From the NCBI GenBank assembly GCA_016179955.1, contig JACPCD010000038.1, forward strand, positions 1 to 36,381: a stretch of DNA of 36,381 nt. Direction: 5' to 3'. Made by a program: the position numbers and the translations under genes. Origin of the DNA: Candidatus Woesearchaeota archaeon. Its GTDB lineage: Archaea; Nanobdellota; Nanobdellia; Woesearchaeales; GW2011-AR9. Every line of letters starts with the position of its first letter. Position 1 is the stretch's first letter. Below, one piece after another: positions 31,454 through 32,697 of this stretch. The notes below the pieces were generated by a model. The model made no database searches. It had not been told where the DNA came from and was given only the letters and a program-made list of their open reading frames with translations.

Positions 31454-31653
31454 GGCGGTGTAGCTTAGCCTGGTTTATAGCGCCAGACTCATATAGATAT
31501 GAGTAATGAGGGGAAACCCAATGAAAAATATCTGGCGCAATCTGGAAGTCGCGTGTTCAAAAATAAGGGGCTTCGCCCCTTATCAACCCCAGACCCTGCG
31601 GGGAATATATCACCCTCGACCTGGGGGGAACATTGAAAATCACGCCACCGCCA
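31454..31653 (+). tRNA. tRNA with CAU anticodon (elongator Met or Ile2), with two predicted introns 31494-31539 and 31562-31639
   Basis: Spliced product GGCGGTG TA GCTTAGCCTGGTTTATAGC G CCAGA CTCATAA TCTGG AAGTC GCGTG TTCAAAT CACGC CACCGCC A gives acceptor, anticodon and T stems with full pairing. T-tract follows. Confidence 0.85.
31563..31605 (+). repeat. copy 1 of a short repeat: ATAAGGGGCTTCGCCCCTTATCAACCCCAGACCCTGCGGGGAA
   Basis: Inside the T-loop intron. Starts with a perfect 8-bp hairpin. Confidence 0.8.
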
Positions 31654-31674
31654 CTTTTTTATAAAGGTAAAACA

Positions 31675-32322
31675 ATGATAACCATCTACGGTATCGGTTC
31701 ACCGTACGCCGCCAGAGTACGCGCAGCGCTCATCTGGAAAGATCTGCCATTTGAACATGTCAATGTCGACCTCGGAAAAAAATCAGCAGAATTTTTGCGT
31801 TTGACCCCCATTGAAACCGTTCCGGTAGTCCAGGATGGAGATATTGTTCTGTGTGATAGTTTGCACGCTCTCGACTATTTTGATAGGCATTATCCGGCGA
31901 CGTACCAAATGTTAGGGGGCAATGAACGAGAAAGGGCTAGAGTTCTTACCGTCATGGAAGCGTGCAATAAAATTGCATCTTATTTTGGGCCACTCTATAT
32001 GGAGAATGCAAGCATAGCCGAACGGATGCAGAGGTCTGGAAAATCGTTCCGGGTCTTCCAATACTCTCCGGAGCAGAAGAAAGACTTGCAGGCGGAGATT
32101 TCGTATCGTTTAAATAGGATCAAAGAGTTCTATGGCTCTCAGCAGTTCTGTATTGGCCGATTTTCTGCAGCAGATGCGGCAGTGTTAGCGTTGTTGCGAA
32201 GCACCGTTTCATTTGGGATGGATATTGGGGCCTGGAAAGAGTGGCAGAATATGCTGTTACAGCAGGAGAAGATAGCCAGCATGTTTCCTTCGGAGAACGA
32301 GAAAGGTGTTCGGAGCATTTAA
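31675..32322 (+). CDS. glutathione S-transferase-like protein
   Basis: ITIYGIGSPYAARVRAALIWKDLPFEHVNVDL...TPIETVPVVQDGDIVLCDSLHALDYFD. ATG at 31675 is the likely start. Confidence 0.82.
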   Translation: MITIYGIGSPYAARVRAALIWKDLPFEHVNVDLGKKSAEFLRLTPIETVPVVQDGDIVLCDSLHALDYFDRHYPATYQMLGGNERERARVLTVMEACNKIASYFGPLYMENASIAERMQRSGKSFRVFQYSPEQKKDLQAEISYRLNRIKEFYGSQQFCIGRFSAADAAVLALLRSTVSFGMDIGAWKEWQNMLLQQEKIASMFPSENEKGVRSI

Positions 32323-32348
32323 TGGTCCACACATAAGTGGCTTTGTCC

Positions 32349-32391
32349 ATAAGTGGCCTTGCCCCTTATCAACCCCAAACCCTGCGGGAGG
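32349..32391 (+). repeat. copy 2: ATAAGTGGCCTTGCCCCTTATCAACCCCAAACCCTGCGGGAGG
   Basis: Close match to copy 1. An extra half unit ATAAGTGGCTTTGTCC precedes it at 32333. Confidence 0.8.
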
Positions 32392-32413
32392 GAAAAAGAG
32401 AGGGTTTCACCAT

Positions 32414-32441
32414 TTATCAACCCCAAGCCCTACGGGGAGAA
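32414..32441 (+). repeat. copy 3 (partial): TTATCAACCCCAAGCCCTACGGGGAGAA
   Basis: Close match to the second half of copies 1 and 2. Confidence 0.75.
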
Positions 32442-32460
32442 GTAATACGATAAATTTACC

Positions 32461-32595
32461 ATGGTCCATACTGCTTTACCGGGCGACAAATACAAATGCA
32501 CTAAATGCGGCTCTTCTCATGTTGACATTTATGAGTACAAAGGGAAGAAGGTGCAGGCGTGTCTGGATTGCGGGCATGAAAAAGAGATGGAGTAG
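32461..32595 (+). CDS. 44-aa zinc-ribbon protein
   Basis: MVHTALPGDKYKCTKCGSSHVDIYEYKGKKVQACLDCGHEKEME. Two CxxC knuckles. Not in the supplied ORF list because of length. Confidence 0.65.
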   Translation: MVHTALPGDKYKCTKCGSSHVDIYEYKGKKVQACLDCGHEKEME

Positions 32596-32697
32596 GTGCG
32601 GAGATTAATTGTAGTGTTTAATTCGTTACGGGGCTTTTTTTGATTAAAAATAAGTAAAAGTAAAAATTTTAAGATGGGCTTTGACACCTGAAGAATC

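Follow-up and report, generated by a model that had tools for sequence, protein, structure and literature searches.

A probably mobile two-hairpin DNA element of Woesearchaeales that also occurs as a putative intron in the T-loop of tRNA genes

A short two-hairpin repeat carried in the T-loop of an archaeal tRNA gene is probably a non-autonomous mobile DNA element of the order Woesearchaeales that targets tRNA genes and, once tolerated there, went on to spread as a spliceable intron. Copy number, positions, base pairing, and the existence of both empty and occupied sites form the basis of this reading. The window, that is the whole stretch of DNA analysed (36,381 nt), is contig C26 of G000, a 954-kb Woesearchaeota MAG that is 81% complete and has an archaeal SRP RNA.

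The intron-bearing tRNA gene and its surroundings

Features of the window that bear on the repeat are as follows.

31454..31653, forward strand: tRNA gene with a T-loop intron and one or more anticodon-region introns; the anticodon is probably CAT, uncertain
31562..31639, forward strand: T-loop intron of 78 nt at position 59/60, between T-loop nucleotides 59 and 60
31556-31559, forward strand: TTCA predicted by the minimum-free-energy fold to pair with TGAA near the intron 3' end, as the bulge-helix-bulge of the intron
31563..31591, forward strand: core of the putative mobile element, hairpin 1 (ATAAGGGG-CTTCG-CCCCTTAT) followed by CAACCCC
31587..31604, forward strand: hairpin 2 of the element (CCCC...GGGG), from an alignment of eight T-loop introns
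31608..31631, forward strand: degenerate second half-copy within the intron (TATCACCCTCGACCTGGGGGG), resembling TTATCAACCCCAGACCCTGCGGGG
31675..32322, forward strand: glutathione S-transferase (GST)-like gene (PF13417, E = 1.6e-17)
32332..32347, forward strand: truncated element start (CATAAGTGGCTTTGTC), fourth copy in the window, repeat family D2
32349..32391, forward strand: intergenic element copy, 90% identical to the intron copy; lacking from the homologous interval of contig C27
32397..32441, forward strand: second intergenic copy, with hairpin 1 decayed and CAACCCC and hairpin 2 retained; missing from C27

The host of the intron copy at 31563-31602 is a real tRNA gene. Once the intron is excised, the acceptor strands (GGCGGTG/CACCGCC) and the T-stem (GCGTG/CACGC) pair, and the T-loop reads TTCAAAT. 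ARAGORN made no call on the gene in place and Rfam gave no match, presumably because of the T-loop intron. A covariance-model match of 71 bits covers the T-arm and intron (31551-31645), which fold as a stem, a helix of 4-5 bp, and a 3-nt bulge (z = -3.0 relative to shuffles). In the window's own fold, CCCC pairs with a later GGGG run and not with its hairpin 2 partner. Composite introns with a second element copy were also found at C37 and C38.

The first-pass annotation had described the intron as containing a perfect 8-bp hairpin and as sharing its sequence with repeats on the far side of a GST-like gene, all of which was borne out. Three copies of the repeat were recovered, at 31563-31602 (reference), 32349-32388 (90% identical), and 32397-32436 (75%), with the GST-like gene separating the first from the other two. 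The partial copy previously placed at 32414-32441 is real, but is the better half of the third copy. A 91%-identical counterpart of window positions 31610-32600, comprising the tRNA 3' end, GST, and the next small gene, lies at C27:46400-47259 and lacks both intergenic copies. The GST frames of C26 and C27 both appear to be open. The C27 segment may be a paralogue or may come from another strain, and its contig ends just beyond the T-loop repeat.

Copies across the genome and the order

A genome-wide search recovered more than 20 further copies in G000, most within other tRNA genes. A region search returned 22 places, and the element core had 22 occurrences in the 954 kb (reversed-pattern control, 0). 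The pattern TTATCAACCCCARRCCCTRCGGG, allowing up to three mismatches, gave 12 matches against none for the reversed control, and most of these, inspected singly, occupy the equivalent position in other tRNA genes; a covariance model (R1) built on the T-arm plus intron gave 26 matches. The repeat in G000 is not a product of chance. At least 14 tRNA genes of the genome carry the element in the T-loop, all exactly at 59/60 (C5:7022, C5:53939, C20:7527, C25, C26, C28, C30, C31:6661, C32, C34, C38:8443, C39, C42:13753, and one gene split by a contig end between C37 and C38). At C33:8203, the same core lies inside an anticodon 37/38 intron with a CTCA:TGAG helix and flanks unlike those of the T-loop copies, and the orthologous tRNA of G027 (L123) has a 37/38 intron that lacks the element.

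In the G000 lineage T-loop introns are common, and tRNAs are hidden from ARAGORN by them. Three, of 26-43 nt and free of the element (C20:19075, C34:5989, C23:27943), sit in tRNA-Ala(TGC), tRNA-Tyr(GTA), and a third tRNA, and their existence counts against the mobile-element reading. At C25:6771-6943, a sense tandem copy starts exactly at the intron start, such that intron, 3' exon, and flank are repeated downstream of the complete tRNA.

The T-loop copies read have the bulge-helix-bulge of archaeal tRNA introns, formed by the T-stem, a TTCR:YGAA helix, and 3-nt bulges (TTCG:CGAA or TTCA:TGAA). Position 57 covaries with its intron partner (A57-T in 8/8; G57-C in 12/14 and G-U in 2/14; Fisher p = 1.4e-4), a test that is circular for script-located introns, for which pairing was a search requirement, and much less circular for those found through the element and T-stem/acceptor pairing. 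After excision of the element from T-loop carriers, ARAGORN called Gly-GCC, Asn-GTT, Cys-GCA, Leu-CAG, and Thr-TGT, and restored tRNAs overall included Gly, Asn, Cys, Leu, Thr, Val, and Tyr; the calls for C26 (Ala) and C30 (Leu) depend on uncertain anticodon-region introns, and the remaining carriers, most with further introns, were uncalled or doubtfully called. C28, C32, and C37 rest on T-stem and acceptor pairing because the excision script picked the wrong frame. G000 also encodes a splicing endonuclease (PF01974 at C2:1363, E = 7.7e-30). These data suggest that the T-loop copies are excisable tRNA introns, which would be spliced in the cell.

Across the order, the core (ATAAGGG-N6-CCCTTATCAACC) was found in 39 of 353 genomes and 30 of 220 genera, with the reversed control matching once in each of three genomes, and in 17 of the 49 family genomes (control 0 in all 49). 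Neither this distribution nor the further copies within G000 matched the outcomes that the first-pass annotation had held against mobility. All genomes are MAGs or other assemblies; core-bearing relatives are labelled Woesearchaeota, Nanoarchaeota, or archaeon, in addition to two Altiarchaeota whose core-bearing contigs (L091, L099) may be misbinned. The element measures ~40-110 bp and consists of hairpin 1 (ATAAGGG-N6-CCCTTAT), CAACCC, and hairpin 2. Its CAACC is nearly invariant, and hairpin pair 8, both positions of which were left free in the search pattern, takes all four Watson-Crick forms (G-C, C-G, T-A, and A-T). Copies confined to a local duplication are ruled out by this genome-wide and order-wide occurrence, as is an assembly artefact, the element being common to independent MAGs.

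Among 103 distinct copies, 19 are in T-loops, 54 have a significant flanking direct repeat (a test that ignores tRNA identity, which was read by eye at the loci inspected), 26 have neither, including some decayed cases and the repeats of G299/G300, and 4 are too near contig ends. The commonest context in relatives is a tRNA-end fragment, ~5 nt (often CAC or CGC), the element, a short spacer, and a complete tRNA. Fragment and complete tRNA are co-oriented, with the element antisense at tRNA 3' ends; 5'-end versions also occur (L184, L188, L199; L214 is similar). Truncation of the fragments falls at the T-loop, V-arm, D-loop, or anticodon arm, and the ATAAG end of the element abuts that point. 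The resulting direct repeats vary from ~16 to ~80 nt and are unlike an ordinary target-site duplication, and at L120 and L130 fragment and complete gene belong to different tRNAs; both points count against the mobile-element reading. Tandem arrays of tRNA-end fragment plus element, in units of ~65-86 bp, are present in G000 (C18:1-300), G002 (C33:1596-1752), and G070 (C185:3744). CRC precedes ATAAG in roughly half of the copies outside introns and is missing from T-loop copies, hence the path between the two forms was not seen, a further point against the mobile-element reading. At five loci (L102/L113, L088/L106, L120, L075/L130, and L221), a T-loop intron persists in the fragment but not in the complete gene next to it; the reverse was never seen.

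Empty and occupied sites support the mobile-element reading. In addition to C27, which is empty relative to C26, tRNA-Val(TAC) has an uninterrupted T-loop in G000 but an occupied one in G029 and G067, and that of tRNA-Asn(GTT) is occupied in G000 and intact, with the element downstream, in G005 and G027; in G069, where the element is also downstream, the T-arm of tRNA-Asn(GTT) holds an unrelated insert. A MITE family of ~140-240 bp in G299/G300 (L182-L200), which has GTATTTGTTTAGCT as inverted repeats and apparent target duplications of 8 bp, likewise occurs with and without the element inside. Some T-loop copies are old and inherited, as is that of tRNA-Thr(TGT), which G000 and G030 share.

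A possible route from element to intron

Under the mobile-element reading, the element would land in a tRNA gene and come to lie with the complete tRNA to one side and a truncated direct repeat of that tRNA's end to the other. In G000 it would also enter T-loops, in sense orientation at 59/60, where the T-loop TTCR would pair with YGAA near the 3' end of the element to give the central helix of a bulge-helix-bulge; because this helix would allow the tRNA splicing endonuclease to remove it, the element would be tolerated. From there, the intron form would have reached at least 14 tRNA genes and a single 37/38 site. The spreading intron that the first-pass annotation had offered as the alternative to a mobile element also holds within G000, so the two can be taken as stages of one story. 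We infer that a site-specific recombinase moves the element in trans, and that the near-palindromic TTCGAA makes the T-loop a ready-made proto-bulge-helix-bulge: the motif being self-complementary, an insertion that duplicates the T-loop would already have TTCG and CGAA on opposite sides. Taken as a whole, a new minimal (~40-110 bp), gene-less integrative element of DPANN archaea, which lands in tRNA genes through a recombinase acting in trans and becomes a spliceable T-loop intron in some lineages, with the near-palindromic T-loop supplying half of the splicing motif, is a tentative proposal that stands at somewhat under even chances.

A survey of Y1_Tnp, integrase, and RVT_1 across the family yielded no mover, which counts against the mobile-element reading. 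Integrases are present in 48 of the 49 family genomes and, being near-universal, are uninformative on element presence. RVT_1 was found in 11/17 element-positive and 6/32 negative family genomes (p = 0.004, uncorrected and ignoring kinship). The three reverse transcriptases of G000 (C28:26789, C22:4681, and C38:14262; L222-L224) each have an Rfam RT-16 match and a likely variable protein, and are apparently diversity-generating retroelements, three in one 954-kb genome; the RVT_1 excess was therefore not counted and a reverse transcriptase was rejected as the mover. No transposase was seen beside the G299/G300 copies among ORFs judged by eye, and no related autonomous transposon at the copies read (G000 being 81% complete).

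Several other explanations were weighed against the mobile-element reading. The repeat could be an attachment-site arm left by larger integrative elements (plasmids or viruses) for which tRNA genes had served as attB and which have since been deleted, the complete tRNA and fragment then representing attL and attR. Direct repeats of this kind are the hallmark of tRNA-targeting integrases (PMC3293823, PMC9897764), and the five intron-in-fragment loci, none reversed, look as though an intronless 3' half had come in with the integrated side. At L120 and L130, however, the fragment comes from another tRNA than the complete gene, which an incoming intronless tRNA end does not explain; the interval is always tiny, with the element and a short spacer but no integrase between tRNA and fragment, and no larger gene-bearing version was found at the loci read; viral contigs, phages, and plasmids gave no match, by which a virus or plasmid carrier was rejected; and T-loop introns and MITE copies are left unaccounted for. 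We regard this explanation as unlikely, though with a real share of the probability. Intron-first spread, in which an ordinary T-loop intron moved between tRNA genes by reverse splicing or T-arm gene conversion, a route put forward for Thermoproteales, and the intergenic copies are escapees, would account for the shared position 59/60 and lineage-specific similarity of the 14 genes and for the tRNA-Thr(TGT) intron common to G000 and G030, and PMC4090602 and PMC4033280 document intron transposition in Thermoproteales. It is nonetheless improbable, given that most other genomes have the core outside introns, antisense, by duplicated tRNA ends or in MITEs, and that the anticodon (37/38) copy has different flanks.

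A REP-like palindrome moved by an IS200/IS605-type Y1 transposase would share the hairpin with a conserved 3' foot, the dispersal, and the missing fixed target duplication, and Y1_Tnp is found in 9/17 element-positive against 8/32 negative family genomes, but at p = 0.06, uncorrected and ignoring kinship. Y1_Tnp was not found in the other 8 of the 17, a figure to which MAG incompleteness lends some doubt, including the element-rich G002, G013, and G036 with several copies each, while the Y1 genes of G000 (C5:17158 and C31:15549) lie kilobases away from any copy. With so weak an association, a Y1 transposase was rejected as the mover, and this origin has a low probability. Covariation in hairpin 1 and the nearly invariant CAACC would also be expected of a conserved functional RNA (a motif for processing, stability, or regulation) associated with tRNA genes, yet a DNA hairpin recognised by a recombinase would show the same covariation, and the element occurs in both orientations to tRNAs, patchily (39/353 genomes), in tandem arrays, and with some coding-gene neighbours, making a functional RNA very improbable.

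Relation to known systems and implications

Introns at tRNA position 59/60 are already known, according to PMC4090602 and PMC4033280, which also cite a 2010 study of large-scale tRNA intron transposition in Thermoproteales by a mechanism described there as unknown. As in Thermoproteales, near-identical bulge-helix-bulge introns lie at non-canonical positions in many tRNA genes of one lineage, highly similar introns being shared by 14 unrelated tRNA genes of G000. Unlike in Thermoproteales, the host here belongs to another phylum, and the sequence of the intron is found in addition as a DNA element dispersed outside tRNA genes and next to tRNA ends that are duplicated. An origin of tRNA introns from mobile elements has been proposed before (PMC3293823). 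Under the Caldiarchaeum subterraneum model (Sugahara et al. 2012, PMC3293823), as here, a fragment and a complete tRNA form direct repeats and intron status differs between the two sides; the insertion there is 1.8 kb and bears a recombinase, whereas here it is a gene-less hairpin and the complete gene is intronless in five cases. Direct repeats of tRNA ends and truncation at tRNA loops are shared with SSV-type and pNOB8-type elements, but at the loci read neither integrase nor cargo lies between the repeats, intervals are far below 1 kb, and tandem arrays are frequent. The MITE-like character suggested at the outset applies loosely: the element is short, non-coding, multi-copy, and polymorphic in its insertion, but has no separated terminal inverted repeats of its own (hairpins are internal and the ends differ), no target duplication of short, fixed length, and no transposase known for it, and in G299/G300 it is itself nested in true MITEs. 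The dispersed palindrome with a conserved foot recalls REP/RAYT and IS200-IS605 hairpins, from which the tRNA association and the inconsistent presence of a Y1 transposase set it apart.

In the open-access literature searched, we found no report of the element or of Woesearchaeota T-loop introns. What is new here is a tRNA intron that exists as a DNA element outside of tRNA genes as well. Work on the element additionally reveals tRNA genes missed by standard finders. The means by which archaea acquire tRNA introns at non-canonical positions has been an open question since similar introns were seen in many Thermoproteales tRNAs (PMC4090602); now that one sequence can be traced within one order in both an intergenic or tRNA-flanking form and a spliceable intron form, and empty sites exist, it can be tested directly. 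The element illustrates one path by which new tRNA introns may come about and, if the mobile-element reading is true, would represent a DNA-level origin route for non-canonical tRNA introns.
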